From NCBI GenBank assembly GCA_900105225.1, contig LT629764.1, forward strand, positions 4,856,501-4,920,500: a stretch of 64,000 bases of DNA, written 5' to 3'. The position numbers and the translations under genes are program-made. The stretch is from Paenibacillaceae bacterium GAS479 (GTDB lineage: Bacteria; Bacillota; Bacilli; Paenibacillales; Paenibacillaceae). Each line of letters opens with the position of its first letter. The stretch's first letter is position 1. Positions 33,002-59,466 of this stretch are shown piece by piece. The notes under the pieces were generated by a model. That model was given only the letters and a program-made list of their open reading frames with translations. It was not told the origin of the DNA and made no database searches.

Positions 33002-33595
33002 ATGGATTTTGAACAAGTTCAAATTAGCAATTTTCAAGGCTCGACAATGGGTGTTATTCTGATTCTGTTTATTTTGCTGGTCATTGTTGCCTGCACCTTT
33101 CCAAGCGGTCAGAGGGACAATTGTAGGAATAACGTGCCGGACTTCGTGCCGGACTTCGTGCCGGACTTCGTGCCGGACTTCGTGCCGGATTTCGTGCCGG
33201 ATTGCGTGCCGGACGATGATTTTCCCTCTATTCTAACCACACTTGAATTCAACATTATTAATAACACGATCAGTCGTCGTTTCGTTTTCAGATCGACCAC
33301 GCGACCAGCAGTAACTCCTACTCCAAGCGCCGTTATAGGTCCTAATGGTGGATCAAACCAGTATGTGATGCAGGTCCCAGGAAATTTAAGTGGAACTAAT
33401 CGAGCTACTATCGTTTACAATGTGCTCAATTCAAGCGGAGGTAATTTGGGGACTTTTACTTTCAGACTTAATACAACTAGAACGGGTAGGGGTATTGGCA
33501 GGGCTGTGGGCACTATTGATCAAGTCAGCTCCACTGCACCAAGGAACATCAGATTTAACATAACCGGCAGGACTCTGTCAGTTAGCGAATTCTAA
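33002..33595 (+). CDS. YjcZ-like membrane segment plus beta-rich domain, paralog A
   Basis: A 197-residue protein that I do not recognise as a whole. Residues about 13-32 (STMGVILILFILLVIVACTF) resemble the hydrophobic core of the sporulation protein family YjcZ. A stalk of VPDF tetrapeptides, from a 12-base DNA repeat, covers about residues 45-72. The rest, about 75-197, alternates hydrophobic and Thr/Ser/Asn-rich stretches like a small beta sandwich, with NIINNT, a VxPTPSAxIG turn, GGSNQYVMQVPG and TIDQVSST. The AGGAGG ribosome site is strong. It is closely related to B (34004), and more distantly to C and D at 58-59 kb. Confidence 0.8.
   Translation: MDFEQVQISNFQGSTMGVILILFILLVIVACTFPSGQRDNCRNNVPDFVPDFVPDFVPDFVPDFVPDCVPDDDFPSILTTLEFNIINNTISRRFVFRSTTRPAVTPTPSAVIGPNGGSNQYVMQVPGNLSGTNRATIVYNVLNSSGGNLGTFTFRLNTTRTGRGIGRAVGTIDQVSSTAPRNIRFNITGRTLSVSEF
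33134..33214 (+). repeat. 12-bp repeat encoding Val-Pro-Asp-Phe units
   Basis: GTGCCGGA occurs seven times at 12-base spacing (33134 to 33206). The unit encodes VPDF five times, then VPDC and VPDD. It lies just after the membrane segment of paralog A. Confidence 0.95.
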
Positions 33596-33606
33596 AAATA
33601 TTAGAT

Positions 33607-33655
33607 AACAGAAAAAACGAGCAGAAGGAAACGCCCGCTCCCCGTCCATCCGAAT
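33607..33655. repeat. 49-bp inverted repeat, left copy
   Basis: Reverse complement of 34706-34754 with a single mismatch. The two copies enclose the decayed gntR fragment and paralog B. The sequence itself resembles a terminator, with a GAGC/GCTC stem and a T6 run on one strand. Confidence 0.92.
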
Positions 33656-33707
33656 ATAAAGCAAACAATTCACCTTCATAGTAAAGAAGTTGGAAGTCTA
33701 GACAACT
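33654..33707 (+). repeat. 54-bp direct repeat, copy 1
   Basis: Matches 34791-34844 at 52 of 54 positions. It contains a GTCTAGAC site (33696-33703). It appears to be a displaced piece of the ABC importer promoter. Confidence 0.92.
33696..33703. promoter_or_regulatory. GTCTAGAC site in the duplicated segment
   Basis: Same 8-base palindrome as at 32045, 34755 and 34833. Here it stands before the decayed gntR fragment and about 300 bases before paralog B, so it may be a leftover. Confidence 0.45.
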
Positions 33708-33830
33708 GAGCGATCAACATCAGTCAGTGTCATACGGTGAATGCAAGGAAGTGTGGGCTTCATTTCTCAACATTGAAATGAGTGCTTCCAAAATGATGTC
33801 TTTCAGTTTTGGATTGATCGTGTTCGGTAG
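33708..33830 (+). pseudogene. Remnant of a second gntR copy
   Basis: The first about 75 bases resemble the middle of the GntR gene (from about 32399), and the last about 45 bases resemble its final codons and stop. Roughly 310 bases between are deleted. The start and DNA-binding domain are missing, so it cannot be functional. It shows that the gntR-paralog A segment was once duplicated whole. Confidence 0.85.
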
Positions 33831-33850
33831 CGTTATTCATATTCGCTCGA

Positions 33851-33877
33851 ATCCTCCTACTTTGTAGGGGGATTTTT
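33851..33877 (+). terminator. Duplicated copy of the gntR terminator
   Basis: ATCCTCCTAC (33851-33860) pairs with GTAGGGGGAT (33864-33873), then TTTT. Confidence 0.8.
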
Positions 33878-34003
33878 ACATTTATGACGCGATGGATGCC
33901 GCCAAACTATTATCCTATCGGTACAACTGCCAGAGTCCGTTTATCTGTCTGATTAATACTATGCTTATAGAAAGATCTTAATCATATTATAGGAGGAATT
34001 TAG

Positions 34004-34624
34004 ATGAATTTTGAACAAGTTCAAATTAGCAATTTTCAAGGCTCGAAAATGGGTGTTATTCTAATTCTGTTTATTTTGCTGGTCATTGTTACCTGCACCT
34101 TTCCAAGCCGTCAGAGGAACAATTGTAGGACTATTGGGACGGACATTGGGACGGACATTGGAACGGACGATGATTTCGCCTCCATTCTAAGCACACTTGA
34201 ATTCAACATTATTAATAACACGATCAATCGTCTCCTCGTTTTCAGAACGACCTCGAGACCCGAAGTAACTCCTACCCCAAGCGCCGTTATAGGTTCCGAT
34301 GGGGGATCGAACCAGTATGTGATGCAGGTCCCAGGAAGTTTAAGTGGAACTTATCGAGCTACTATCGTTTACGATGTGCTCTATTCAAGCGGAGGCAATT
34401 TGGGGACTTTTACTTTCAGACTTAATACAACTAGAACGGGTACGGGTATTGGCAGGGCTGTGGGCACTATTGATCAAGTCAGCTCCACTGTACCAGGGAA
34501 CATCAGATTTAACGTAACCGGCAGGACTCTGTCAATTAATCAATTAGGAGGTCCTATAAGTTCAGCAGGTTCAGAAGAATATCCGCTTGAAAATTACTGT
34601 GGCTGTAATCAGATTCAGTGCTGA
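34004..34624 (+). CDS. YjcZ-like membrane segment plus beta-rich domain, paralog B
   Basis: A 206-residue near-copy of paralog A, about 1 kb downstream in tandem. The membrane segment is at about 13-32. The stalk is shorter and different: three IGTD units from a 12-base repeat (34133-34168). The beta-rich domain is nearly the same as in A. B ends with an extra tail of about 25 residues that carries three cysteines (NYCGCNQIQC), which A lacks. The upstream 170 bases, including the ribosome site, are also duplicated. Function is unknown; a sporulation or surface role is suggested only by the YjcZ-like segment. Confidence 0.8.
   Translation: MNFEQVQISNFQGSKMGVILILFILLVIVTCTFPSRQRNNCRTIGTDIGTDIGTDDDFASILSTLEFNIINNTINRLLVFRTTSRPEVTPTPSAVIGSDGGSNQYVMQVPGSLSGTYRATIVYDVLYSSGGNLGTFTFRLNTTRTGTGIGRAVGTIDQVSSTVPGNIRFNVTGRTLSINQLGGPISSAGSEEYPLENYCGCNQIQC
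34133..34168 (+). repeat. 12-bp repeat encoding Ile-Gly-Thr-Asp units
   Basis: Three units of ATTGGGACGGAC (the last with one change) at the same place in paralog B where paralog A has the VPDF array. Confidence 0.95.
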
Positions 34625-34627
34625 GTC

Positions 34628-34666
34628 AAAAACCACTTTTCATTATTAAATGAGAAGTGGTTTTTT
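34628..34666 (+). terminator. Intrinsic terminator after paralog B
   Basis: Sixteen-base stem with one G-U pair (34628-34643 with 34650-34665), ending in a T6 run. Confidence 0.9.
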
Positions 34667-34705
34667 CATATACGGAAATAATCACCTTTTGCAATATCGA
34701 ATGGA

Positions 34706-34754
34706 ATTCGGATGGACGGGGAGCGGGCGTTGCCTTCTGCTCGTTTTTTCTGTT
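34706..34754. repeat. 49-bp inverted repeat, right copy
   Basis: Inverted partner of 33607-33655, one mismatch in 49. It abuts the GTCTAGAC site at 34755. Confidence 0.92.
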
Positions 34755-34762
34755 GTCTAGAC
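34755..34762. promoter_or_regulatory. GntR operator GTCTAGAC, distal site of the ABC importer
   Basis: Followed by ATGTTA, exactly as at the gntR promoter (14 bases shared in a row). It lies 143 bases before the substrate-binding protein gene. Confidence 0.6.
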
Positions 34763-34790
34763 ATGTTAGCGAATTCTTAACATACGTTTG

Positions 34791-34844
34791 ATATAAAGCA
34801 AACAATTCACCGTCATAGTGAAGAAGTTGGAAGTCTAGACAACT
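34791..34844 (+). repeat. 54-bp direct repeat, copy 2
   Basis: Partner of 33654-33707 with two mismatches. It includes TATAAA (34792-34797), a possible -10 box, and the proximal GTCTAGAC. Confidence 0.92.
34833..34840. promoter_or_regulatory. GntR operator GTCTAGAC, proximal site of the ABC importer
   Basis: Second site, 78 bases from the distal one, between the possible -10 box and the ribosome site. Two sites flanking a promoter would suit looping or roadblock repression. Confidence 0.6.
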
Positions 34845-34897
34845 ACTGGTTGGGACTGACAACGGAACATCTGCACATTCCGAGGAGGGTCAAAAAA

Positions 34898-36100
34898 ATG
34901 AAACGTAATTTTCTCCAAGTCATGCTCGCTAGTGCAACGGTGGCCGCATTAGTAACCGGCTGCGGTGCAAATGAAACGAATTCTGGCAGTAACGAATCTC
35001 CTGCAACGAGTGCAAGCCCGGAAGCTGCAGCTAAAGTAGAGATGAAGCTGAATCTCGCAACAGCAGGCGACACGAATATGACCGAGCTGCAAGAGAAAAA
35101 TGTCATTCCAGAATTGGAAAAGTTGTATCCAGATGCGGATGTGAATGTGGTTGGCACAGGTCCTGGAGACGCAGGCTCCCAGAAAATTTTTGAAAAGTTG
35201 AAAGCCCAAAAGGATGCCGGCAAAAAAGAATGGGATATCGATATCGCTATCGTTCACCAAAGCGTGATGAAATCGATGATCGAGAATGATTTGCTGGAGC
35301 AATGGGTTCCTCAATCCGCTAATAAAGATGCGGTCGTATCGTCGGACAGTAAAAACAGCCTTGGTACAAACGTGGATGGTTATGTCGTTCCGCTCTATCA
35401 CAGCCAAGTCGCAATTGCCTATAACCCGGAAAAAGTGAAGGCAGCTCCACAAAATTTCGATGAGCTTGAGCAATGGATCACAGCCAATCCAAAGAGATTT
35501 GGATATAACGGAATTAAAAATGGCATGAGTGGAGTCGCTTTTGTGACCGCTTACACTTATGCCAAAAGTGGTGATTACAAAACATTGACCGAAGGGCCTT
35601 ATGATGCGGAGTTGGAGAAAAAGTGGCCTGAAATCATGAAACAGTTGAAGTCACTGCCTGTCACTTATACAAACGGCAATAACGGTACGCTTGATATGCT
35701 CAACCGTGGCGAAATCGACATGGGTCCGGTATGGGTGGATATGTTTTATCAATGGATTGCTGACGGCCGCTTGAACCCTGATCTTGCGCTAAAAGTACCG
35801 GAGCCGGGTCTTCCAGGACAACCGCTGTATGTCGTCATTCCGAAGCAGGCCAAAAACAAAGAAGCTGCGCTCAAATACGCCGATTTCCTGACTTCACCGG
35901 AGATCCAGGCCAAAGTCATCGTAGATGGTTACAGCTGGTACCCAGGCATTAATGCCGAGGCTGTTCTACCTAAAGTAAGTGAAGCAGGCAAACAAAAGCT
36001 GTTTAAATACGTTACTGCGGAAGACTTGAACCAGCGTGGACAGTCGCTGCCGATTGGTGATTATTTCAAAAATCTGCAAGCTGCTTACGAGAAAAATTAA
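34898..36100 (+). CDS. ABC importer substrate-binding lipoprotein
   Basis: A 400-residue solute-binding protein anchored by a lipid: the signal peptide ends in the lipobox LVTGC at residues 18-22. The mature part is a two-lobed binding protein of the spermidine/iron/2-aminoethylphosphonate class; the ligand cannot be read from sequence. I use the ATG at 34898, behind GAGGAGGG; an upstream ATG at 34850 would remove the signal peptide. It is the first gene of a four-gene importer operon under the two GTCTAGAC sites. Confidence 0.88.
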   Translation: MKRNFLQVMLASATVAALVTGCGANETNSGSNESPATSASPEAAAKVEMKLNLATAGDTNMTELQEKNVIPELEKLYPDADVNVVGTGPGDAGSQKIFEKLKAQKDAGKKEWDIDIAIVHQSVMKSMIENDLLEQWVPQSANKDAVVSSDSKNSLGTNVDGYVVPLYHSQVAIAYNPEKVKAAPQNFDELEQWITANPKRFGYNGIKNGMSGVAFVTAYTYAKSGDYKTLTEGPYDAELEKKWPEIMKQLKSLPVTYTNGNNGTLDMLNRGEIDMGPVWVDMFYQWIADGRLNPDLALKVPEPGLPGQPLYVVIPKQAKNKEAALKYADFLTSPEIQAKVIVDGYSWYPGINAEAVLPKVSEAGKQKLFKYVTAEDLNQRGQSLPIGDYFKNLQAAYEKN

Positions 36101-36119
36101 TGCCGGGAGGATGGAGATT

Positions 36120-36980
36120 GTGCCCAATTTAAGCGCAGCTTCCAAAGACAATAACACGTCCCATTCCATCTTCCGCTGGCTGGCTGGGGTTATTATGATA
36201 GCCCCGGCTACTCTCATCGTTATTGGTTTATTCTTATACCCGTTCATGGGCTCCCTAGTAGGGAGCTTTCGGAATGAGAGTAGGGAGTGGACGCTGGACA
36301 ATTACTTTTATGTGCTGGAAACCTATCATATGGACCTGTTTTTCACGATTGCAATTTGCTTAATCAGCCTTGTGCTCGTGCTTGCAGTGGCTTCGTTATT
36401 GGCCGGATGGCTGCGGCTTAAAGCAGATCCATTTGTTGAGTTTTTGTTTAAAATACCGCTTTTTGTGCCGTTTGTCGTTGTTGGTCATGCAATGCGCGTA
36501 TTCCTAGCGCCACATGGAACGATGAACTCGCTGCTCGCTTCAACCGGATTATTTAATCCCGACAGCATGCCTGGCGTTGCTTTTTCCACATTAGGATTGA
36601 TCGCCGCATTGGTTTGGAAAAATATCGGATTGACTCTGCTGCTCGTAATGGGGGCTTTTCGCGGAATTAATTCCAGTTATCTCGAAGCCGCTCGCAACTC
36701 CGGAGCCGGAGGCTTCCGCTTGATCAAGGATATGATGATTCCAATGTCATGGGGAACGATCAGCGTTGCAGGCATCTTAACGTTTACGTCGATGATCGGA
36801 AATTTCTCAATTCCTGCCATGCTTGGTGATGGCGGCGGCAGCCAAATGCTGATGATCGATTTGTATTACGAGCTTATTTATCGCCAGGATGCTGGTGCAG
36901 CCAATGCGCTTGGCGTTATATCGTACATTGCCTCCATGGGCGCTGCGATCTATTACGTGAAGAAGGTGGCTAAGTCATGA
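36120..36980 (+). CDS. ABC importer permease 1
   Basis: A 286-residue permease with about six membrane helices and a cytoplasmic EAA-type loop (YLEAARNSGAGGFRLIKDMMIP). The start is GTG 36120, with GGGAGG at 36105-36110; the ATG at 36111 abuts that site. It ends in a four-base overlap with permease 2. Confidence 0.9.
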   Translation: MPNLSAASKDNNTSHSIFRWLAGVIMIAPATLIVIGLFLYPFMGSLVGSFRNESREWTLDNYFYVLETYHMDLFFTIAICLISLVLVLAVASLLAGWLRLKADPFVEFLFKIPLFVPFVVVGHAMRVFLAPHGTMNSLLASTGLFNPDSMPGVAFSTLGLIAALVWKNIGLTLLLVMGAFRGINSSYLEAARNSGAGGFRLIKDMMIPMSWGTISVAGILTFTSMIGNFSIPAMLGDGGGSQMLMIDLYYELIYRQDAGAANALGVISYIASMGAAIYYVKKVAKS

Positions 36981-37831
36981 GCGCTGGCGTGGAATTGAAA
37001 CAAACGGGCGCGCATGCTCCTGGGTTCTCCGGGAGCATTGGTCGGATGATTATGCGCTTTGTTATCTATGCCTTCTCCATTTTCCTGATTATGGGGCCGA
37101 TTTCAAGCTTGATTATTTGGTCCTTTGCCGAGAAGTGGTATTGGCCGCATACGCTGCCCCAGGAATGGGGGATGAAGTATTGGGCGAAAGTGCTGGAAGG
37201 GAAGATGGCAGAGTCGCTTTCGCTCAGCTTCGGCATCGCGCTGCTTGTCACCTTCGTTTGCATTCTTTTATGCGTGCCGCTTTCCTATTTGATAGCACGA
37301 TATCGGATTCCCGCTAAATCTCTCTTGCTGCTTATCTTCTTACTGCCACAGGCTTTCCCGCAGCTTCCGGTGTTCACGAATGCGATGGAGATCATGTATC
37401 GATGGGATCTTGTCGGCACGCTGACAGGGGTGACTTTGATTCATCTTGTAGGCGCGTTGGTATTTTCCGTGTGGACGATGGTTTCGGTGTTTCAAAGCAT
37501 CTCCGTTTCCTTGGAAGAGGCGGCTATCAACCTCGGTTCTTCACGCATTAAGACCTTCTTTACGATCACGCTGCCTATAGCATTACCAGGTATTATTGCG
37601 TCTTCCTTATTAGTATTTCTCTATTCTCTGGATGAATTCACCGGAAGCCTGCTGATCGGCTCGCCGTTTATAACGACCATGCCGGTGTATATGTACAACT
37701 CCGCTATGGGTTATGAAATGCAGACTGCGTCGGTTACAGGGCTGCTGCTTATGATTCCAGGTATCATCCTGTTGTTACTCATGCAACGTTTTATGAAGTC
37801 TGAATATATGGCAGCATTCGGGAGGGGATGA
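36977..37831 (+). CDS. ABC importer permease 2
   Basis: A 284-residue permease with about six helices and its own EAA-type loop (LEEAAINLGSSRIKTFFTITLP). It pairs with permease 1 to form the channel. Start and stop both overlap neighbours by four bases (ATGA), so the three genes are translationally coupled. Confidence 0.9.
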   Translation: MSAGVELKQTGAHAPGFSGSIGRMIMRFVIYAFSIFLIMGPISSLIIWSFAEKWYWPHTLPQEWGMKYWAKVLEGKMAESLSLSFGIALLVTFVCILLCVPLSYLIARYRIPAKSLLLLIFLLPQAFPQLPVFTNAMEIMYRWDLVGTLTGVTLIHLVGALVFSVWTMVSVFQSISVSLEEAAINLGSSRIKTFFTITLPIALPGIIASSLLVFLYSLDEFTGSLLIGSPFITTMPVYMYNSAMGYEMQTASVTGLLLMIPGIILLLLMQRFMKSEYMAAFGRG

Positions 37832-38868
37832 CAATGGACATTCGCTTAGAGCAGGTATCCAAGCAATATGGTAATAGCCGCGGTATCGAAAATATTACCC
37901 TCTCCTTGCCGCAAGGCGGGTTTACGGCAATCGTTGGCCCGAGCGGCTGCGGCAAAACGACCTTGCTGCGCGCGTTAGCCGGATTTCATGATATTGATTC
38001 CGGCACGATGCGCTTTGGTGATCGCGATGTAACAAGGGCGCCATCCCGTGATCGGGGGGCCACGATGGTTTTTCAAAACTATGCGTTATGGCCCCATATG
38101 TCGGTGTTTGACAATGTTGCGTATGGGCTGAAGCTGCGCAAAATGAGCCGGGCGATGATCGAGCAAAAAGTCCATGACGTGCTGACGCGGGTCGAAATTC
38201 CAACTCATGATATTAAATCCCGCAAACCTCAGCATTATTCGGGGGGGCAGCAGCAGCGGATCGCTCTCGCCAGAGCGCTTGTTATCGAACCGAATCTGCT
38301 GCTGATGGATGAGCCGCTTTCCAATTTGGACGCGAAAGTCCGCTCCCGCCTGCGGGTGGAGATTCGGGCGATTCAGCAATCGTTTGGAATTACCGCTTTA
38401 TATGTGACTCATGATCAAGAAGAAGCGCTATCGATGGCCGATTATGTGGTCATTATGAAAGATGGCCGGATCGAGCAGGCGGGAAAACCGCAGGAAGTTT
38501 ATTATCAGCCGCAAACATTGTTCGCCGCTCAATTTTTAGGGGAGAGCCACACATTGAAAGTTATGAAAGACGGCAAACCGATGCAACTTGTGCTCCGCTC
38601 GGAAAATATCCGCCTGCAGCCGGATCGGGTTCCGGCGCAGCTGTACAGCGAATATCCCGCTGTTACATTTGGGGATGGCTATTTCAGCTTCCATGCGGAA
38701 ATCGGCGCCCCGCTGTTCATCGGCTCCACTTACCGCTACATGGCTACGGTGCAAGGACAAACCTTTTTTGTCGACGCAGAAGAGCTTTACCAGCCTGGCA
38801 GTTACCTCGCCACGATTCCGGCAGAACGGGCCTACTGGTTCGAGGACGGTGAAAAAGCAGTTAGCTGA
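37828..38868 (+). CDS. ABC importer ATP-binding protein
   Basis: A 346-residue ATPase of the PotA/FbpC type. Walker A GPSGCGKTT is at about 36-44, the signature is HYSGGQQQRIALARAL, Walker B LLLMDEPLSNLD, and the switch His lies in VTHDQEEAL. About 100 C-terminal residues form a TOBE-like regulatory domain. An ATG at 37834 is an alternative start. The substrate is probably a small polar compound such as a polyamine, a phosphonate or an iron chelate; this is inferred from family only. Confidence 0.92.
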   Translation: MTMDIRLEQVSKQYGNSRGIENITLSLPQGGFTAIVGPSGCGKTTLLRALAGFHDIDSGTMRFGDRDVTRAPSRDRGATMVFQNYALWPHMSVFDNVAYGLKLRKMSRAMIEQKVHDVLTRVEIPTHDIKSRKPQHYSGGQQQRIALARALVIEPNLLLMDEPLSNLDAKVRSRLRVEIRAIQQSFGITALYVTHDQEEALSMADYVVIMKDGRIEQAGKPQEVYYQPQTLFAAQFLGESHTLKVMKDGKPMQLVLRSENIRLQPDRVPAQLYSEYPAVTFGDGYFSFHAEIGAPLFIGSTYRYMATVQGQTFFVDAEELYQPGSYLATIPAERAYWFEDGEKAVS

Positions 38869-38878
38869 AATAGTTATG

Positions 38879-38950
38879 AAACCGGTGAAAAAGTATTCGA
38901 CGTGCCCAAAGTCGGCCCTCCGATCACTGTCGCTGATTTTTCACCGGTTT
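38879..38950 (+). terminator. Long-loop hairpin between the importer and the secreted-protein gene
   Basis: Perfect 14-base stem (38879-38892 with 38937-38950) enclosing 44 bases. It ends in GGTTTTA and is followed at once by the ribosome site of the next gene. It could be a terminator, an attenuator or an mRNA stabiliser. Confidence 0.6.
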
Positions 38951-38971
38951 TACAAAAAAGGAGTGAAGATA

Positions 38972-40378
38972 ATGAGCATAAAAACAAGTTTACGCAAATG
39001 GTTGCCACTCGGACTGGCAGCGGGAATCGCTTGGACAGGATTGCCGCTGCCGGGAGGGGTTGCTGCAAACGCAGCAGTGGCAACAAACGCCGCAAGTTAT
39101 GCAACTGCAGCGGGAGTTGAAGCTCATTATCAAGCTGTCGCAGACCGTTTTGCTCTCGTCATTTATCAGAATGTCCGGAAAAAAGGAGTATTTCGCGCGG
39201 GGTATCTGGACAACTACAACTACAAAATTTATGCCGATTATTTGACCAAGGTCAATTATGACGGGGATTGGAATTCCGGTAATAATTGGCAGAACCTGGA
39301 TGCAAATAAAGATCAACTTGGGGCTTACGTATATTATGATGTGAAAGAAACGGAAACGCATTATTTTATTGGTTACTACACGTATTATCCGATGGATGAC
39401 GCTGGAGCAGATAGCGACCGTCATGAGAACGATATGGAAGGTGTGCTCGTCGTTGTGCGCAAAGGCGCGGAAAATGACGGGATGGGCGCACCGATGCTCG
39501 TTGTTCTGGAAGGCCACGGCAAGCTGTATCAATATCGGGTAGACGGAGCCGGCAGCGCCATTGGGAACAGCGGCGACGATATCGACGGAACGATCCGCAT
39601 GCGCGGTTCACATCCCGAAGTGTTTGCAACGAGCAACGGTGGCACGCCAGATATCGGTTCGTTCGGGCATAACATCAAAAAATGGGATGCGCCTTTCAAC
39701 AGTGATTTTACAAATTCCCAAAACTTCGGTGGTATTGAGTACATCGTGGGCACAAACGCGCAGATTCATAACAATGACACGATTTACAATGCCTACAATA
39801 ACGGCGGATTACCAGTCGGCAACTACAGCAAAGTGACGTATAAAGCAATTCCGATTTCCGAGCTGTGGGACAAACGATTTGAAATCGGACCGGATAAGCT
39901 GTTCGGTGTATTTGGTAAAATTAACGGCGACGATGGAGCGGGAGAGCATGCCGCCAACGCCCCGTGGAACTGGAGTTATCGCCCGGAAGCAGGCTTGGCG
40001 ACAGGACTGATCTTCTATGATCCAGCGAGGCTGATCCAATATATGTTGACCAACTTGGGCAACTATTCGCTCCATTATGTGAAGCGGGACGGCAGCGGCA
40101 ACAATTTGCCGGGCGTGTATCTTTATGAGCATCCCAACGGAGAAGGGCGCATGCAGCACATCGTTTCGAATGTCGGCGATCTGCGTCAAGGACTTGTAGG
40201 CGATGATTCCATTACCTCGGTGAAGGTCGTCGGAGCTAATTATCAAACCGTGCTGTGCGCTGATCTGCTGTTCCAAGGTGCTTTCTCCAACAATATTATG
40301 ACTGAAGGTTTAACGAACCTGAGTTACGGTCCGATGGATGACAAAGCGACTTCGGTAATGGTGAACGTGCTTCCTTAA
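38972..40378 (+). CDS. Secreted protein with C-terminal beta-gamma-crystallin domain
   Basis: A 468-residue exported protein. The signal peptide covers about residues 1-33, with an Ala-x-Ala cleavage region. The main part, about 40-370, has a WQN ... YFIGYYTYYP ... HENDMEG pattern that recalls Vps62/NPP1-like secreted proteins, but I cannot name a family with certainty. The last 85 or so residues are a beta-gamma-crystallin domain: VYLYEHPNGEG opens it, and two calcium-site motifs of the D-D-x-x-S/T-S type are visible (DDSITS and DDKATS). AAAAGGAGTG precedes the ATG at 38972. It follows the importer ATPase by 103 bases and could share its operon. Confidence 0.75.
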   Translation: MSIKTSLRKWLPLGLAAGIAWTGLPLPGGVAANAAVATNAASYATAAGVEAHYQAVADRFALVIYQNVRKKGVFRAGYLDNYNYKIYADYLTKVNYDGDWNSGNNWQNLDANKDQLGAYVYYDVKETETHYFIGYYTYYPMDDAGADSDRHENDMEGVLVVVRKGAENDGMGAPMLVVLEGHGKLYQYRVDGAGSAIGNSGDDIDGTIRMRGSHPEVFATSNGGTPDIGSFGHNIKKWDAPFNSDFTNSQNFGGIEYIVGTNAQIHNNDTIYNAYNNGGLPVGNYSKVTYKAIPISELWDKRFEIGPDKLFGVFGKINGDDGAGEHAANAPWNWSYRPEAGLATGLIFYDPARLIQYMLTNLGNYSLHYVKRDGSGNNLPGVYLYEHPNGEGRMQHIVSNVGDLRQGLVGDDSITSVKVVGANYQTVLCADLLFQGAFSNNIMTEGLTNLSYGPMDDKATSVMVNVLP

Positions 40379-40444
40379 TGGGTATTTCCTCAAAAGCAAA
40401 AGATAACTCCTGCAAAAGTGGGAGGCAGCTGAAACGCCCGTTTA

Positions 40445-40497
40445 ACAGAAAAAGGTACAGTACCTCCATTTTTGAGGAGAATGTACCCTTTTTCTGT
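40445..40497. terminator. Intrinsic terminator after the secreted-protein gene
   Basis: ACAGAAAAAGGTACA (40445-40459) pairs with the stretch at 40482-40497, with an inner CCTC/GAGG helix. A and T runs on the two sides allow it to work in both directions. Confidence 0.85.
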
Positions 40498-40619
40498 ATA
40501 ATAGGTTATGAAACTGAGTAGTTGAGCCTAATGATTCAGTAACAGCAAACCATGAAATTGAGAGACACATAGGAAAAACACCCTAGAAAAAGATGTTTCA
40601 GAAATTTGTGTGACTAATT

Positions 40620-40781
40620 TTATTTATTTGGTTCAAACAAATATTCCTCATTAATTTGCTGTCTCATCTGTTCTTGTACTTCTATTGCTTGATCATAGCT
40701 TTTCGCTGTCACTACATAGAAATTACCAAAAGCCTCCTCTGGGGTCGTTTTCCATGTAAGGTAATGCTTACTGCTTCTCTT
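40620..40781 (-). pseudogene. 3' fragment of an unknown gene
   Basis: A 53-codon stretch ending in a stop, with natural-looking protein sequence (WKTTPEEAFGNFYVVTAKSY, then a helical QAIEVQEQMRQQINEEY part) but no start codon. The frame is closed upstream by a stop. Neighbouring minus-strand sequence in another frame also looks coding, so a frameshifted remnant is likely. Not recognised. Confidence 0.4.
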
Positions 40782-40883
40782 TTAACATTAATTTCTTTTG
40801 GTGAGCTATGTAAATGGCTTGACAAACAAAAAAATGGTGTGAAAATTGAAATTAAAAGTATTTTAATTATTGAGGTGAATTGT

Positions 40884-41177
40884 ATGAGAAGAAATAAAGT
40901 TAAGATAATTTTATATTCTGTAATAGCAATCGTTGTTTTATTCATTTCTTTAATATTATTTACTGGTCATTCCGTGCATATTGCTCTTGTGAAATTAGTC
41001 GAAATTTCCGGTGACGAGCTTGTGTTTGAGACCCAATCGGGTGATGAAATCAGGGCCAAATCTCCTAGCATTATCGTTCCGTTATTAGAAACAGGCAAAA
41101 AATATACGATCACAGTATATGACTACCGGTTCCAAAGTCCTTCTTTGAAAAAAATTAAACTTTCAGAAGTGCAATAA
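40884..41177 (+). CDS. Small membrane-anchored hypothetical protein
   Basis: A 97-residue protein with one N-terminal membrane helix (about residues 7-27) after a basic MRRNKVK start, so the rest should lie outside the cell. The outer part is a short strand-rich domain (ELVFETQSGDEIRAKSPSI, KKYTITVYDYR). I start at ATG 40884 with GAGGTGA upstream; the long frame from 40656 has no support before that. It may be a partner or an immunity-like companion of something lost; no family is recognised. Confidence 0.65.
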   Translation: MRRNKVKIILYSVIAIVVLFISLILFTGHSVHIALVKLVEISGDELVFETQSGDEIRAKSPSIIVPLLETGKKYTITVYDYRFQSPSLKKIKLSEVQ

Positions 41178-41206
41178 AAAAAGAAACTTTGCTAAAATAA
41201 TATGTT

Positions 41207-41241
41207 AAAAAGCCGCCTTAAAATTGCTAAGGCGGTTTTTT
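41207..41241 (+). terminator. Intrinsic terminator
   Basis: CCGCCTTA (41213-41220) pairs with TAAGGCGG (41228-41235), flanked by A and T runs. The sequence from here to 41570 holds no other feature I can name. Confidence 0.88.
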
Positions 41242-41570
41242 AAGGTAGCGTCAAGTATTGTGTGTAGTAAAGTTTTCAATCACGAGAATGATTAAGATAC
41301 TGGTGTTTAAGTGGTGGGCATAGCAATTATAAGTCCGATCAGATTAGGTATATTCGTTTTTGGTTGCATCTTGTTTCTATTATGTTTTTTTGAACTAATA
41401 CTTCGATTGTTCGTATGCTAGCTCCGGTTGTTTTTTGAAGAAAAGCACTTTGCTTAAGTCGAAAGAGTTCAAAGCCTCACTAAAAGTTGAAGAGGGCACT
41501 TGCTGGCGGTAAAATAGATGGAGAGCGCTCCCTTAAGGGTGCGTCGCAGGCTACCCAAGGAGGGTTCCAT

Positions 41571-41882
41571 ATGTTAATCACGACCACACCTACTGTTGAA
41601 GGACGGCCGGTTCGAGAATATGTCGGCATCGTAAATGGTGAAGTCATTATGGGAGCAAATGTCGTGCGTGATTTCCTGGCATCCATCACGGATGTGATAG
41701 GCGGTCGCTCCAATGCATACGAAGAGAAGCTCAAAGAGTCTAGAGATCTCGCTATGGAAGAGATGCGTCGTCAGGCATCCAGTATGGGCGCCAATGCGAT
41801 TGTTGGTGTAGACCTGGGCTACGAGGTGATACGGGATGGCATGCTGATGGTAACATGCAGCGGAACTGCGGTTATCCTCTAA
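41571..41882 (+). CDS. YbjQ/UPF0145 family heavy-metal-binding domain protein
   Basis: A 103-residue protein of the YbjQ (UPF0145) family: [14 protein letters not shown] start, [17 protein letters not shown], then [17 protein letters not shown]. The fold forms rings; the name heavy-metal-binding comes from family annotation and function is unproven. I start at ATG 41571 with AAGGAGGG upstream, not at the earlier ATG 41487. Its stop (TAATG) overlaps the start of the next frame. Confidence 0.92.
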
Positions 41883-52793: not shown

Positions 52794-52816
52794 TTAAGCA
52801 CTGAGGAAGTTGAGAT

Positions 52817-52890
52817 GCACCCCTTATAGTGGACATTGGAAAACACTTTGGTGTTTAAGCCGGTGAAAACGAATAAGGGGTGCTTTTTCT
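52817..52890 (+). terminator. Intrinsic terminator after the GH20 gene
   Basis: GCACCCCTTAT (52817-52827) pairs with ATAAGGGGTGC (52873-52883), with an inner AACAC/GTGTT hairpin, then TTTTTCTTT. Confidence 0.85.
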
Positions 52891-52963
52891 TTATAAATCT
52901 CGGCTATGCCTAATTTCTTTACCACTGGCGGTGAGAAAAGATAGTGCTTCTCTAGCTGTACCA

Positions 52964-53932
52964 CTAACGGAGGGGAAAGCTCAGCTTCTCCTCGCGGACG
53001 ATAATGGAATCGCGAGGCAAATCTTGCTCGCGAAATTCCGCGAGCAGCTCCTCTGGCGTGACCGGCTCCGCGCGGTGGAGCAGCCCGCTCCAGCTTGCCA
53101 GCAGTCCGACAGCTTGCTGCGGGGAAGCTCCGGCTTCGCGAATGGCCGCCAGCGAGATGCCGCCGTGGCGCTTGGCGAGCCTTTTGCCATCCGGGCCTAG
53201 AAGCAGTGGCACATGTGAATATCGCGGAGGCTTCCAGCCGAGCGCCTCAAAAAGCAGCAACTGGCGCGGCGTCGAATCCAACAGATCGCTGCCACGCAAC
53301 ACATCGGTCACACCCATAAGGGCGTCATCTACGGTGACGGCGAGTTGATAGCTGAAAATACCATCGGCGCGGCGCACGACAAAATCGCCCCCGGCTCCCG
53401 GAGCCGTCGTCTGAGATCCCGCGCACGCATCCTCGAAGCGAACAATTCGGTCCGCAGGTACGGCTAAGCGGAGTGCGGGTTCTTTTACAGCTGAACGCTC
53501 TTGGCGCTGCTCCGAACTTAGCTCGCGGCAAGTGCCTGGATAGGCAGGGCCTTCCGATGATAAGCCATGTGGCGCGCTTGCTACTGTTGCTAACTCGGCA
53601 CGGCTGCAATAACAAGGATAGAGAAGGTTTTGTTCTTCCAACTTTCGAAGCGCTTCTTTATAGAAGGAAAGGCGCTCGCTTTGTGTATAGGGACCGCGGC
53701 TTCCGCCGATATCAGGACCTTCATCCCAATCCAGGCCGAGCCAGCGCAGATCACGAAGCGCAGCCTCTGCATATTCAAGACGGGAACGAGGGCCGTCGAT
53801 ATCCTCCATCCGCAGGATGAAAGACCCTCCTTTGCTACGAATCTGCAGCCAAGCCAGCAGCGCGGTTCGGGCATTGCCGAGATGCATGAGGCCGGATGGA
53901 GTTGGGGCAAATCTTCCAGTAACATTATCCAT
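52964..53932 (-). CDS. gluQ: Glutamyl-Q tRNA(Asp) synthetase
   Basis: A 322-residue truncated GluRS-like enzyme that attaches glutamate to queuosine in tRNA(Asp). The ATP motif is HLGN (HIGH equivalent) in [19 protein letters not shown], and KRLAKRHG stands for KMSKS. Zinc ligands are visible as CYC and a later Cys in YPGTC. The anticodon-binding domain of true GluRS is missing, as expected. It is divergent from the coiled-coil gene. Confidence 0.95.
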
Positions 53933-54010
53933 TGGATCAGCTCCTGCAAGCGGAGGTTTCGCTTCCGCGGATTATTTTCGGCATTGCCGTCGTTTCACGC
54001 TTGTTCTGAC

Positions 54011-54019
54011 TGGTATAAT
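54011..54019 (+). promoter_or_regulatory. Extended -10 promoter of the coiled-coil gene
   Basis: TGGTATAAT is a perfect extended -10 (TGn plus TATAAT), 41 bases before the start. The -35 region is poor, which such promoters tolerate. Confidence 0.6.
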
Positions 54020-54060
54020 AGCATTAGGATGGACGTCTCGCAACGAAAGGGAAGTTAGCG

Positions 54061-55125
54061 ATGATCGATAACAACCAGAATCAACATAACAACGAGAATC
54101 AAGATAAAATCGAGAATCAAGATAACAAAGAGAATCAAGACCGTCATGTGCCCAATCAAGCTGGAGTGGTGGCGAAGCAGCGAATAATGGAGATCGGTCA
54201 GAAGCTGGAGCTTGCACTGCAAGCGGATGCGGAGTTGGGAATTTATGAGCGAAGGAGGGACCGGCTTCGTACGGATATTTTTCGCGCGGAGCAGGAACTG
54301 AGACAACTCAAGGAGCTTAGCAGCGAGGAGCAGCAGGATGTCGAAAAGCTAGCCCGTCTAAATTGGAGCTCACTGCGGCTTCGGCTCACAGGTGATCTGG
54401 AGGAGCAAGTAGAGCTTGAGCAGCTTGAAGCGGAGCGTGCGGCGCTCAAGGTGAAAGAAGCCGAGTCCGCTCTGGAGCTTATGAGGCAGCAGCTATGGGA
54501 TAACGGTGAAAGGATGGGAAATCTGATCCCATTGATCGGCCAAAGCGGCAATCTGCGAATGGAACATGAACGGCTGATTGTCGAAGCTGTACCGGGAATC
54601 GAACTGCAGTTAAGGGAGATTGATGTTGAGATCAAGAGGCAGAATCAACTGAACGTCGAGCTGCAGCGATCGATTTCCGCCTGTTACTCTCTGAACGAGA
54701 ATCTCGACAAGGCGATAAGCAAGCTGGAATCGGCTGCCAACTGGGGCGTCAGCGACATGCTGGGCGGGGGAGCAATTAGCACAGAGATGAAGCATAAACG
54801 GCTTGATGAAGCTCAGGAATCTCTAGTCAACGCCCATTCCGCGGCATACCGGCTGGAGAAGGAGCTAGGTGATCTAAGTAAGAATGCTTCCTTTAAAATT
54901 CAGTTGAGCCAGTCAGCGCGTTTTGGCGATTATTGGTTGGATGGACTTATTATGGACTGGCATGTTCAAAGTAAAATTAAAGATATGATCAGCAAAAATG
55001 TGGTTTTACGACAAGATACTAGAGCTTTGACACATCAGTTGAAAGCGGAATCCACTCGTCAGGAAAAGGGGCTGGAGGAGCTTCGGCGGCAGCGACAGAA
55101 GCTGCTGATCGACGCCATCCAGTAA
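54061..55125 (+). CDS. Coiled-coil protein, hypothetical
   Basis: A 354-residue acidic/basic helical protein without cysteine-rich or catalytic motifs. The N-terminus (residues 1-30) is an Asn/Gln-rich stretch with three ENQDxx hexapeptides from an 18-base repeat (54094-54141). Residues about 40-240 and 255-350 read as long coiled coils, split by a short Gly-rich break (WGVSDMLGGGAIS). No signal peptide. It could be a structural or scaffolding protein. AAAGGGAAG precedes the ATG. I do not recognise a family. Confidence 0.75.
   Translation: MIDNNQNQHNNENQDKIENQDNKENQDRHVPNQAGVVAKQRIMEIGQKLELALQADAELGIYERRRDRLRTDIFRAEQELRQLKELSSEEQQDVEKLARLNWSSLRLRLTGDLEEQVELEQLEAERAALKVKEAESALELMRQQLWDNGERMGNLIPLIGQSGNLRMEHERLIVEAVPGIELQLREIDVEIKRQNQLNVELQRSISACYSLNENLDKAISKLESAANWGVSDMLGGGAISTEMKHKRLDEAQESLVNAHSAAYRLEKELGDLSKNASFKIQLSQSARFGDYWLDGLIMDWHVQSKIKDMISKNVVLRQDTRALTHQLKAESTRQEKGLEELRRQRQKLLIDAIQ
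54094..54141 (+). repeat. 18-bp repeat encoding Glu-Asn-Gln-Asp units
   Basis: GAGAATCAAGA occurs three times at 18-base spacing (54094, 54112, 54130), near the start of the coiled-coil gene. Confidence 0.85.
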
Positions 55126-55239
55126 GATTGTCCAAGAACGGGGACTGGGCCGAAACCGCTCTGAAAACCGACCAGGATAACTCCTTAACGGCGCCTCCCA
55201 GGCGAAGCTGTCGATTCGATAAAGAATGGAGTTTGATTT

Positions 55240-56193
55240 ATGCTGCGCATTATGGCGATGGACAAAAAGAACAAGTTGCGTAAGGATGTTCAGCTCGAGG
55301 AGTTGAACACGCTTGATCCTGTCTGGTACTGGGTCGATATCGGCCAACCGGATGAGCAGGAGACAGGGCTGCTTGAAGAATATTTCCAGTTTCATCCACT
55401 GGCGATCGAGGACTGCCTGCATTTGTTACAGCGTCCAAAGATAGATCCCTATGAGGATGTTCATTTTTTCGTCATGCATTCACTCGATTCGGATACACTG
55501 AAGGCGCATGAAATAAATCTGTTTTTGGGGCCGAATTACGCCGTGACGTTCCACTTCGGCGCATGTCCTGAGATTGACGATGCCTGGAAGCTGATGACGG
55601 TTCATCCGAAACATCCCTCCAAAGGCCATTTAGTCGTCGCCCATGGCGTGCTTGACCGTCTTGTAGATCATTATTTTCCAGCTATATATGGCCTTGAGGA
55701 TCAACTGCTTGATGCCGACCCCAGCAGCAAGGGATACTCGGACAGCTCCAGCATAGACAATGTGTTCGAGATTCGCAGCAAGCTGCTCAAGCTACGCAAA
55801 ACAATCGTGCCGATGCGCGATTTGCTGTACCGGGTCACGACGACGCTGGAGGCCATTCCTGGTATGAAGGACTTTCGGCCGTTTTTTCATGATATATATG
55901 ATCATCTGCTTAAGCAGTCCGAGACGCTTGAAGCCTGCCGGGACATGACGGCCGACATGCGCGACAGCTACATCAGCTACAATGCCAACCGGATGAATGG
56001 AATTATGAAAACACTGACCGTTATCACGACTATTTTCATGCCGCTGACCTTCATGGCCGGTATTTATGGAATGAACTTTGTCCGTATGCCGGAGCTCGAA
56101 TGGGATTACGGCTACTTTATGGCGCTCGGCATAATGGCGGTTGTGGCGGGCAGCATGTTCGCTTGGTTCAAGCGCAAGGGCTGGTTTAGATAA
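55240..56193 (+). CDS. corA: CorA family magnesium transporter
   Basis: A 317-residue CorA-type channel for Mg2+ (or Co2+). A cytoplasmic alpha/beta domain is followed by a long helix and two C-terminal membrane helices. The selectivity motif YGMNF lies between the helices at about residues 280-284, and a basic tail ends the chain. The start is the ATG at 55240, with a GGAG upstream. It is probably a single gene. Confidence 0.94.
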   Translation: MLRIMAMDKKNKLRKDVQLEELNTLDPVWYWVDIGQPDEQETGLLEEYFQFHPLAIEDCLHLLQRPKIDPYEDVHFFVMHSLDSDTLKAHEINLFLGPNYAVTFHFGACPEIDDAWKLMTVHPKHPSKGHLVVAHGVLDRLVDHYFPAIYGLEDQLLDADPSSKGYSDSSSIDNVFEIRSKLLKLRKTIVPMRDLLYRVTTTLEAIPGMKDFRPFFHDIYDHLLKQSETLEACRDMTADMRDSYISYNANRMNGIMKTLTVITTIFMPLTFMAGIYGMNFVRMPELEWDYGYFMALGIMAVVAGSMFAWFKRKGWFR

Positions 56194-56444
56194 CAAGCCT
56201 TGCGCAGACTATTGTAGAGAACCAACGGACGGATCATTTGGTAAAAGGGCGCAGTTCAAACACTAAAGGGGCTGTTTTGCACTAAGGGAGTTTTTGCGAA
56301 ACATCTCACTTCTTCTAATTAAAGATTAAACCTCTGTGGCGGGTTAGGTAGAGGATATCTACATATAAGCACCAAAAGCTTCTCACTTGCATCACTGTTA
56401 TATAATTTCCTTGAAGTATGAATATAAGAGGAGGTTATGTTCTC

Positions 56445-56783
56445 ATGAAGCTGAATCATCTCAATCTTACGGTGACTGATGTCGCGGCGGCCCGGGATTT
56501 TTTGCAAACCTATTTCGGTTTGACCGTCGGGGGCGAGCGGGGAAATACTTTTGCAGCTATGTTTGACGAGGATGGATTAGTTTTGACGCTGATGAAAGGA
56601 ACGCAGGTCAGCTATCCGAAAACATTCCATATTGGATTTATACAAGAGAGCGAAGAGAAAGTGAATGAGATCAATCGGCGACTAAAGGAAGACGGCTTTG
56701 ATGTCGCGCCGCCGCAAAGGTCTCATGGATGGACATTTTATGTAAATGCGCCCGGCGGGTTTGTGGTAGAGGTCCTTTCATAG
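56445..56783 (+). CDS. VOC (glyoxalase/bleomycin resistance) family protein
   Basis: A 112-residue single-domain vicinal-oxygen-chelate protein. It begins MKLNHLNLTVTDVAAARDFL and ends with GWTFYVNAPGGFVVEVLS, where His and Glu residues expected to hold metal are present. The substrate is unknown. I start at ATG 56445, ten bases after GGAGG at 56430-56434. Confidence 0.9.
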   Translation: MKLNHLNLTVTDVAAARDFLQTYFGLTVGGERGNTFAAMFDEDGLVLTLMKGTQVSYPKTFHIGFIQESEEKVNEINRRLKEDGFDVAPPQRSHGWTFYVNAPGGFVVEVLS

Positions 56784-56848
56784 GAGGCAGTTGTACTAAT
56801 CGTGTTAAAGCGTTATGTTCATTGACTCATGTATTGAGAGGAGTAGTT

Positions 56849-57997
56849 ATGAAAGAGAAAATTATCCTCACCTTTTTTATTTTTACATTGTCCCTAGCTT
56901 TCGGTTATACGGTATACGCAGAAAATACTCATGACTTTTATGTAGATGTAACAGAAAATGACTTGAAAAACACTATGATTCTTTCTCCTGAAAGCTCCAT
57001 GGCATTTATTAATGGGCAGAAGGTATCAGCCGTTCAGCCGATTGTTAGAGATGGAAGAACATTAGTGCCCCTTCGTTTTATTTCTGAAGGATTTGGTGCA
57101 AAGGTAGATTTTAATACAAAAAATCAGTCCATTACCATTAAACAATCTGATAAAACCATTTTGCTGAAAATAGGAAATAATAATATTTTTATTAATGGCG
57201 AATCGAGCGAAATGGATGTAGCCGCAAGCATTTACAACAATTCAACTTATATTCCTTTAAGATATATTGGCGAGGCATTTAATAAAAAAGTAGTCTATTT
57301 AAAAAATACAGAGATACAACCCTATAGTTTAATAATAATTAGGGATGTTAACGGCACAGCAATTGAAAACCTTAAGCTTATCCGCGCTTATGAATTACTA
57401 TACCAAGGAAAATCCATTGTCTATAGCGACCGTTTTATGGCAGTCATTAAAGAAAAGGGTCAATTATTAATTAGCAATGATTTCTATTATTTTAAGCCTT
57501 TTGTTTATCAAGAATTGATTGAGGAAAAAAACGTAATTAAATTGGGAGATATATGGTTTAACACAGATATGGGCCGTTTTTATTTGAATTATTCCTATAA
57601 TACAACGCAGGAATTTATTTTATACCGTGTGGATGGAGAAACGATTACAAGGGTAGCGATTGAAAAAGTACCGATAAAGTCGGTAAAAACAAATCTCAAC
57701 GATGTTTATTATTTGACGAGATATGAGCGTGGAATACTCGATGCTCCTGAAACAAGCAATTTAAAAACTGCAACTTTTAATAATGGACAATGGTCTTCTG
57801 ATTTTTTAGGTAAGCCTGGATTTTATTATGGCTTTGACACATTAGGTAAGGTCTATGATTGGCAAATTAATGATAACGGAATCTCTACATTTGGCTATCA
57901 ACGCTCTGGCGATCTAAGTTCTGATGAAAGAAAAAAAACGTTTGGAAATTATAGAATCGAGCTGAAGGGGCATAACCATGAGCTTGTAACGCCATAA
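56849..57997 (+). CDS. Secreted protein with copper amine oxidase N-terminal (stalk) domain
   Basis: A 382-residue exported protein. The signal peptide spans about 1-24 (ends VYAEN). Residues about 48-150 match the copper amine oxidase N-terminal domain, with the paired VRDGRTLVPLRFISEGFGA and YNNSTYIPLRYIGEAFN strands. This domain is a wall-associated module in Paenibacillus and carries no oxidase activity by itself. The remaining 230 residues are strand-rich and unrecognised. AGAGGAG precedes the ATG. The gene is AT-rich. Confidence 0.85.
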   Translation: MKEKIILTFFIFTLSLAFGYTVYAENTHDFYVDVTENDLKNTMILSPESSMAFINGQKVSAVQPIVRDGRTLVPLRFISEGFGAKVDFNTKNQSITIKQSDKTILLKIGNNNIFINGESSEMDVAASIYNNSTYIPLRYIGEAFNKKVVYLKNTEIQPYSLIIIRDVNGTAIENLKLIRAYELLYQGKSIVYSDRFMAVIKEKGQLLISNDFYYFKPFVYQELIEEKNVIKLGDIWFNTDMGRFYLNYSYNTTQEFILYRVDGETITRVAIEKVPIKSVKTNLNDVYYLTRYERGILDAPETSNLKTATFNNGQWSSDFLGKPGFYYGFDTLGKVYDWQINDNGISTFGYQRSGDLSSDERKKTFGNYRIELKGHNHELVTP

Positions 57998-58037
57998 AGG
58001 ATTTGATTACGAATCCACATCCATATAATTAAAAAAA

Positions 58038-58053
58038 CCCCTTAGCGAAGGGG
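58038..58053. terminator. Shared terminator between the stalk protein and paralog C
   Basis: CCCCTT (58038-58043) pairs with AAGGGG (58048-58053). The A7 run on its left gives a T run for the minus-strand gene. Confidence 0.75.
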
Positions 58054-58065
58054 ATTTCGTAGAAT

Positions 58066-58566
58066 TTAGAAGAGTATGGGGTTAGTGATAGTTAAAGTCT
58101 GTCCGGAAGCGTTTAAGTAGACAGGTGCATCTGTTGAAACGTCTACAACAGTGGACGAGACGCCAGATAACCGCCCATTTCTAATACGTAGCGTGAACCG
58201 TACGCTTCCAACGCTAATACTGGCCTCATCGCGCACATCGTAAACGATTGGAGCACGCCGAGTTCCTGTACTAAACCCAGGGACTTGTACCGTATATTGG
58301 TTCAGGCCACCATTCGGGAGCAGAATGTTAGGAGGTATAGAAATTGGATTTGCATTTGAAGAAACGGAAGTCGCATAAAGCGTATAATTGCTTGTGTTGT
58401 TGTAGATGCTGAATGTCCGCGTAGCTAGAAGGTCAATCGAATCATCTTCGTCCGTTTGGCCGACATAAAATACAGAGGTGACGATGACGAGCAATATAAA
58501 CAGGACTAGTACAACTCCAAGGCTTTTACCCGTATAACCACTAATTTTCACAGCTTCATCCTTCAT
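58066..58566 (-). CDS. YjcZ-like membrane segment plus beta-rich domain, paralog C
   Basis: A 166-residue relative of paralogs A and B. The membrane segment (SLGVVLVLFILLVIVTSVF) is at about 15-33. A short acidic stalk (QTDEDDSID) replaces the tetrapeptide arrays. The beta-rich domain keeps IYNNT, a PPNILLPNGGLNQYTVQVPG block and a TLTI end. I start at the complement of 58564-58566, with AAGGGAG upstream; the longer frame to 58641 crosses the conserved upstream block. Lysines before and acids after the membrane segment predict N-in, C-out. Confidence 0.8.
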   Translation of the reverse strand: MKDEAVKISGYTGKSLGVVLVLFILLVIVTSVFYVGQTDEDDSIDLLATRTFSIYNNTSNYTLYATSVSSNANPISIPPNILLPNGGLNQYTVQVPGFSTGTRRAPIVYDVRDEASISVGSVRFTLRIRNGRLSGVSSTVVDVSTDAPVYLNASGQTLTITNPILF

Positions 58567-58959
58567 GTTTGATTTCTCCCTTCTACGATTAATCTTTCTA
58601 TTAACATAGTATGGAAAGGCGGGGAATTCGGACTCTAGCAATTACCCAGCAATAAATTGAAAATAATATTATAGAATGAAAAATAAAGTGTCACACTCGG
58701 CAAATAAGGTTGACGTCGAGCTTATATTGGGCAATTCTGATAGCTATTATATGTATTTTGATTGGCGCATATGGAATGAACTGGTCCTAAATGCCTTCTC
58801 CATATATACGTGGGTATGGTTATCAATAAACAGCGGCGGTCTTGGACTTTATTTTCTTGTCCTTGGCCGTCGCTGTTTCAATCCCTAGGCTCAGTTTTAA
58901 CCTTTATTTTTTGCTGACACCAGATTGTGATTATGGGTATAATTATCTAAAAAGTAAAC
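58567..58959. other. Gap between paralogs C and D
   Basis: Holds the upstream block of paralog C (about 58567-58640) and the terminator of paralog D (58828-58878). A 70-codon plus-strand frame in between crosses the terminator and is not credible. Confidence 0.6.
58828..58878. terminator. Terminator-like hairpin downstream of paralog D
   Basis: AAACAGCGGCGGTC (58828-58841) pairs with 58865-58878 at 12 of 14 positions. It ends in TTT on the plus strand and AAA on its left, so it can serve the minus-strand gene. Confidence 0.6.
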
Positions 58960-59466
58960 TTAAAATAATACATTGTTATAGATATATAACGACGCATCAA
59001 TTCCTGCTTCAGATTCAGTCCAACGAATTGGCGCAGTTGAGCTCACCTCATCAATTAATGCCCTAAATCCGGTGCCACCAGTATGTCTTAAGCGAATATT
59101 GATTGTTAAAGTTCCAATGAAAGTACCGGTCAAACTATCAAAAACATTGTAATTAATAACACCTCGTACAGTCCTGCCTCGAATGCCTGTCATCTGAAAT
59201 TGATTGTATTCACCTGGCGAATTCCGGATTTCAGGTGGAGGAGACGGGCTTACGGTTGACGCTACATAGCTAACTACAAGCACCAAGTTGTTTGTGTTGT
59301 TGTAGATGTTGTAATTTCGTGTGAGCAGAATGCCAATCGGATCATTATCATTCTGACCTGTCCCGCAAAATACAGAGGTGACGATGACGAGCAGTATAAA
59401 CAGAACTAAAATAACGCCGATTCCTGAACCTTTGAAGTTGCTGATGTGAACTTGTTCATCTCTCAT
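58960..59466 (-). CDS. YjcZ-like membrane segment plus beta-rich domain, paralog D
   Basis: A 168-residue protein, the fourth of this kind. The start MRDEQVHISNFKGSGIGVI is closest to paralogs A and B, but the beta-rich domain is the most divergent (IYNNTNN, PPPEIRNSPGEYNQF, DEVSSTAPI). The stalk is short and acidic (QNDNDPIG). AAGGAGGG lies on the minus strand just before the ATG. It stands in tandem with paralog C, pointing left, as A and B stand in tandem 25 kb away. Confidence 0.8.
   Translation of the reverse strand: MRDEQVHISNFKGSGIGVILVLFILLVIVTSVFCGTGQNDNDPIGILLTRNYNIYNNTNNLVLVVSYVASTVSPSPPPEIRNSPGEYNQFQMTGIRGRTVRGVINYNVFDSLTGTFIGTLTINIRLRHTGGTGFRALIDEVSSTAPIRWTESEAGIDASLYIYNNVLF

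Follow-up and report, generated by a model that had tools for sequence, protein, structure and literature searches.

What do four small genes encode that stand as two pairs in one stretch of the chromosome of Paenibacillaceae bacterium GAS479, each joining a hydrophobic segment like that of YjcZ sporulation proteins to a strand-rich domain? The stretch, called the window below, covers bases 4856501-4920500 (64,000 nucleotides) of a genome assembled as one contig of 5,519,719 bases. A sequence-only reading had described the genes as a four-member family and suspected an expanding, lineage-specific group of surface or spore-coat proteins. All four do belong together, but the number four did not hold, as GAS479 encodes 81 full-length members, and the family, often preceded by SigK-type promoters, occurs in three closely related species. 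With slightly more than even confidence, we take the four genes for members of a clade-specific, very large late-sporulation family whose products would carry an anchor, a linker and a recognition head on the spore.

The four genes and their family

All four open reading frames (ORFs) were found, and their alignment shows a common architecture, in which a short N-terminus is followed by the nearly constant segment GV(I/V)L(V/I)LFILLVIV, a linker differing in length and sequence, and the strand-rich C-terminal domain. The 44 invariant columns include N87, N88, T89, P106, P108, G116, N119, Q120, D173, V175, S176 and P180. The features, in window coordinates, are:

33002..33595, plus strand: family member 1 (197 residues; ORF; iterated profile, E 9.1e-38)
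34004..34624, plus strand: family member 2 (206 residues; ORF; alignment; profile)
58066..58566, minus strand: family member 3 (166 residues, ATG at 58566; ORF; Shine-Dalgarno-like GGGAG upstream; profile)
58960..59466, minus strand: family member 4 (168 residues; ORF; profile)
33050..33088, plus strand: YjcZ-like hydrophobic segment of member 1, residues 17-29 (alignment; sub-threshold TIGR01732 match)
34052..34090, plus strand: YjcZ-like hydrophobic segment of member 2 (alignment; TIGR01732 scan)
58480..58518, minus strand: YjcZ-like hydrophobic segment of member 3 (alignment; helix in model)
59380..59418, minus strand: YjcZ-like hydrophobic segment of member 4 (alignment; TIGR01732 scan)
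33133..33214, plus strand: stalk of member 1, 12-bp repeat in 6.8 copies encoding VPDF repeats (TRF)
34128..34168, plus strand: stalk of member 2, 12-bp repeat in 3.3 copies encoding GTDI repeats (TRF)
33227..33592, plus strand: predicted beta-sandwich head of member 1, approximate limits (alignments; head profile)
34181..34621, plus strand: predicted beta-sandwich head of member 2 with an extra C-terminal tail, approximate limits (alignment; head profile)
58069..58434, minus strand: predicted beta-sandwich head of member 3 (AlphaFold model; fold searches)
58963..59337, minus strand: predicted beta-sandwich head of member 4, approximate limits (alignment; head profile)
32933..32968, plus strand: promoter motif of member 1, GTCC-N16-AATACTATG, AATA replacing CATA (motif search)
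33935..33970, plus strand: promoter motif of member 2, GTCC-N16-AATACTATG (motif search)
58598..58633, minus strand: SigK-type promoter of member 3, GTCC-N16-CATACTATG (motif search)
59498..59533, minus strand: SigK-type promoter of member 4, GTCC-N16 with CATATGTTA (motif search)

For member 3, a longer frame from TTG at 58641 is also among the ORFs. The stalks do differ between copies, as had been claimed, while the proposed GG-NQY-VPG block is complete in three of the four proteins and reads GEYNQF-MTG in the gene at 58960.

The family extends far beyond the window. A tblastn search of GAS479 with the protein of member 1 as query yielded 117 matches at E <= 10, and an iterated profile run on the regions around these matches converged on 83 ORFs at E < 1e-5, 72 of which passed a full-length rule (at least 135 residues plus the hydrophobic segment). 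A head-only profile gave 86 matches at E <= 1e-3, partly pieces of one broken gene; adding its places raised the count to 81 full-length members, a figure that excludes five short YjcZ ORFs of canonical type and eight gene remains, of which two are segment-only ORFs. This family signal is far above chance. The members measure 140-206 residues (median 161), occupy 48 places at 5-kb linkage, are split 43 to 38 between the two strands, and have heads that are 13-35% identical to that of the first member in the head alignment. Scans of the family libraries (Pfam, NCBIfam etc.) took in 72 members.

In these scans the proposed YjcZ likeness of the segment proved sound, as TIGR01732 (tiny_TM_bacill) matched 43 of the 72 members at E <= 0.1 (best 1.4e-5) and PF09680 (YjcZ_2) 28 at the same threshold. 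The four window proteins reach 11.9-16.1 bits against a curated TIGR01732 cut-off of 21.35, which in GAS479 is exceeded by a single full-length member, at 27.6 bits, and by one short protein of canonical type, and in Paenibacillus herberti by seven frames of 168-187 residues. Pfam describes YjcZ as a family of unknown function. Canonical YjcZ proteins in this genus stop after the segment (mostly 32-65 residues), but the members here add about 110 residues, predicted to form a folded head, in 81 copies; neither Pfam nor NCBIfam describes the added domain as following YjcZ, in line with what had been supposed.

In 67 of the 81 members, more positive charge lies on the N-side of the segment than on its C-side; in five the two sides are equal, and in nine the N-side is less positive. 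By the positive-inside rule, this suggests an N-in/C-out topology, in which the segment would anchor the product in a sporangium membrane, or else embed it in the forming coat. Two members (L083:2650-3701; genome 2877149-2878200) carry KKRKKK or RRKKK directly after the segment instead of the usual acidic linker, and their topology could be reversed.

Within the searched sets the family is restricted to one small clade. Three of eight genomes of the genus carry it, namely GAS479, Paenibacillus pasadenensis MER37 and P. herberti R33, so the genes are kept beyond this strain; matches at E <= 1e-3 number 86 in GAS479 and 102 and 96 in the other two. A contig scan confirmed 2 of at least 591 listed stretches. 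In non-carriers of the genus, the segment matches examined (five loci in four genomes) were short canonical YjcZ proteins. No carrier beyond the three was met in the sets for the bacterial family (394 genomes) and the order (392), and GAS479 was the sole carrier in a phylum set of 398; up to ten candidates were scored per genome, and the order and phylum sets are samples overlapping the family set, such that a lone copy elsewhere may have been missed. A plasmid search with member 4 gave no relative, and viral contigs no relative confirmed against the one member used. Literature searches found no publication on such a family: the word 'YjcZ' is absent from the genome paper of P. pasadenensis R16 (PMC5774705), and passages of PMC8313275 simply list YjcZ genes of B. 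cereus.

Promoters of the sporulation type

The suspected link to sporulation gains support from the upstream regions. An expectation-maximisation (EM) search of the 160 bases before the 81 starts (set by a ribosome-site rule), seeded from words of these same sequences, returned the motif G[TA][CA]C-N16-CATAnnaT[AG]. Information amounts to 1.1-1.5 bits at CATA, the T and the final C of the -35 block, compared with 0.1-0.3 bits at 15 of the 16 spacer positions; since the spacer is thus much freer than the blocks, shared ancestry alone is insufficient to explain the motif. CATA-N3-TA occurs in 31 of the 81 regions, whereas 100 shuffles gave it in 5.1 on average and never in more than 10. The SigK-type pattern C-N16-CATA-N3-T[AG], written after the motif had been seen, precedes 38 of 66 lead genes, none of 15 followers and 2 of 164 control genes taken from these regions, and is thereby about 47 times commoner at lead genes than in controls. 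A position-weight score at 12 bits (49/66 leads, 2/15 followers, 0/164 controls) is circular for the family from which its matrix was built, which makes the pattern counts the fairer test. In selected stretches of the two relatives, 12 of 29 leads have the pattern, as do 2 of 32 followers.

According to passages of PMC517825, B. subtilis yjcZ belongs to the SigK regulon, and SigK and SigE promoters share the -10 element and differ by C versus T at one -35 position; the base just before the 16-base spacer is C in 77% and T in 4% of the sites here. The apparent SigK control is thus a further likeness to YjcZ. The layout also resembles the bclA promoter of Bacillus thuringiensis (Bt), given as CAC-N16-CATATGTTA in passages of PMC4750369. 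A SigG-like pattern was absent from leads and controls (0/66 and 0/164), and a SigE-like one preceded no lead gene and two of 164 controls. The motif is also present at the canonical yjcZ at 281972, which lies near two members, and at the counterpart of this gene in the non-carrier genome G003. A SigK-type promoter would be expected to activate each gene, or the first gene of a small array, at a late stage of sporulation in the mother cell.

Four short canonical YjcZ ORFs stand in a row elsewhere in the genome (L055:2864-4272; genome 2800363-2801771), three of them with Gly-rich N-termini; none of the four scores with the family promoter motif.

Duplication, loss and selection

Between 25 and 62 kb, the window can be aligned with P. 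herberti, for the most part at 87-94% identity. There, the 58-kb pair is likewise a pair, and the 33-kb pair corresponds to a single gene. Member 2 is a tandem duplicate of member 1 (80% identical proteins), both forming a tandem unit of about 1.0 kb with stretches that are 92-93% identical. Terminator-like stems follow members 1 and 2 at 33612-33643 and 34718-34749, near-identical and on opposite strands, and because of this orientation the unit is no plain copy at its end. In P. pasadenensis, 20 family ORFs stand head to tail on one strand within 11.4 kb (L098:3361-14780; G006:C56), two of them lacking the segment. At 283 kb, two members separate a pair of frames; in the non-carrier G003, the counterparts of these frames lie 12 bases from each other.

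Reciprocal best pairs between GAS479 and P. herberti (24 pairs) gave a pooled ratio of nonsynonymous to synonymous substitution rates (dN/dS) of 0.40 in the head and 0.17 in the segment, and the family is thus under pooled purifying selection; single pairs range from 0.11 to 1.05 in the head. The 81 members were compared with members in selected P. herberti stretches, and some pairs are too distant for sure orthology. In the segment core, agreement between paralogs is 100% at second codon positions, compared with 69% at first and 53% at third ones; the peptide is therefore what is conserved.

A large efflux-pump-like ORF of 1054 residues lies on the plus strand of the window at 28787-31951, with a Gly/Ala-rich repeated insertion near residue 270.

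The predicted head and its possible role

Family size was one point that the sequence-only reading had missed; the other is the predicted fold of the head. AlphaFold models show a beta-sandwich of the aegerolysin/actinoporin type, with aegerolysins and actinoporins as nearest folds and mostly membrane- or glycan-binding proteins as the closest solved ones. A TNF-like or Ena-like (DUF3992) head, the first idea, did not appear in the fold lists, which does not exclude it. By sequence the head stands apart. Aegerolysins (PF06355; e.g. ostreolysin A, RahU, Cry34Ab1) are stand-alone small soluble proteins, whereas all 81 members, selected for it, carry the N-terminal hydrophobic segment (the few head pieces without it are fragments), and PF06355 matched nothing in the GAS479 genome and seven other genomes of the genus and none of the 72 members at E <= 0.1. 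Short proteins above the Pfam Aegerolysin cut-off do occur in genomes of genus g7 (L112, L113, L114), about 20-24% identical to other aegerolysins of the bacterial family. Actinoporins (FraC, sticholysin) and the fungal actinoporin-like lectins (XCL, SRL) are eukaryotic and only 4-13% identical in the alignments; actinoporins possess a pore-forming N-terminal helix, which the helix of the members here does not resemble. Family-library searches with the heads gave nothing convincing, only stray single-member matches (NF033506 putative S-layer protein 4e-4, phrog_31973 0.0016, DUF1980 0.0057, DNA_pol_A 0.0061), and PDB sequences no match at E <= 1. The most conserved positions of model 1 (N57, F53, P79, Y110, G121, P149) seem to belong to the core or to turns, variability is the same in strands and loops (mean entropy 2.74 in both), and the heads contain 1.3% Lys and 0.4% Trp, with any Trp in 35 of 72.

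On the favoured reading, the short, variable and mostly acidic linker would keep the small beta-sandwich head away from the anchor, and the strongly diverged heads with their kept core would form a mixed population on one spore, most likely recognising lipids, glycans or other surfaces met by the spore. Computation establishes the family with its architecture and distribution, the SigK-type sites and the pooled purifying selection; the head fold is a prediction, and expression, compartment, topology and ligand recognition are inferences. The exosporium protein BclA of the B. cereus group, SigK-controlled as well, offers an analogy in its order of anchor, stalk and head; its collagen-like stalk and TNF-like head appear unrelated to those described here.

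Several results weigh against this reading. For the whole model including its helix, the top Foldseek matches reach modest TM-scores (0.43/0.50 and 0.44/0.47), and profile-profile comparison of the heads with aegerolysins was not significant. Cry34Ab1 came first for model 1 and was not among the best 50 matches listed for model 2, and both models were built from the same eight sequences; owing to this missing recurrence and the one shared alignment, the reading was marked down slightly, as was its extension below. The 72 heads show no common ligand site, their conserved residues looking structural, and the ortholog pair of the 33-kb gene has a dN/dS of 1.05. The full SigK-type pattern is absent at 28 of 66 lead genes, members 1 and 2 carry AATA where members 3 and 4 have the CATA core, and among canonical short yjcZ ORFs the motif fails to score at four of the five in GAS479 and at four of five from other members of the genus.

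A more far-reaching version, which we regard as tentative, holds that spores of the clade carry 80-100 different aegerolysin-fold heads on one YjcZ anchor and under one developmental promoter type, i.e. a genome-encoded recognition library on the dormant cell, derived from a toxin-type lipid- or glycan-binding fold that was joined to a tiny sporulation protein and then multiplied.

The strongest rival is a purely structural role, in which the heads pack together as a coat or exosporium lining, meet no outside ligand and diversify by drift under redundancy. It would fit the same SigK-type promoters, the conservation of core and turn residues in place of a shared binding site, and YjcZ proteins being small sporulation proteins without known ligand. 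However, more than 80 strongly diverged heads at the pooled ratio of 0.40 are more diversity than a packing unit needs, and the closest solved folds mostly bind membranes or glycans, so that we think this rival rather improbable, if a serious one. Distinctly unlikely is that the heads are spore-borne antagonists, released or presented at germination and acting like aegerolysins or actinoporins on membranes of predators or competitors. Many proteins of these nearest folds do belong to pore-forming systems, and aegerolysins are lipid-binding and partly components of two-part pores according to passages of PMC9505663, but the head is tied to a hydrophobic segment and has no significant sequence relation to aegerolysins, no partner protein was seen (none was looked for), and a common fold proves no function.

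Copy-number turnover, in which the family multiplies by duplication at weak benefit and many copies are on their way out, would account for the eight gene remains, the recent tandem duplication in the window, the 20-ORF array of P. pasadenensis and the locus without members in G003. Against it speak the head dN/dS, the promoter blocks kept amid free spacers, the plasmid search with member 4, which gave no relative, and the viral-contig scan, in which none was confirmed against the one member used, and we consider it quite improbable. Least credible of all are vegetative surface adhesins whose promoter-like sequence is merely shared with sporulation genes. The anchor-linker-head layout suits any surface protein, and a SigA-like pattern precedes 6 of 66 lead genes, but this is no excess over the controls (15/164), against the strong enrichment of the SigK-type pattern.

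YjcZ segments are annotated in spore formers without a stated function; in this family it is joined to a predicted folded head more than 80 times, in many cases behind a SigK-type promoter, which suggests that it is a general anchor or targeting unit of the spore envelope. A large family confined to one clade, with a head predicted to fold like pore-formers, also makes a strong case for studying how spore surfaces diversify and what they recognise.
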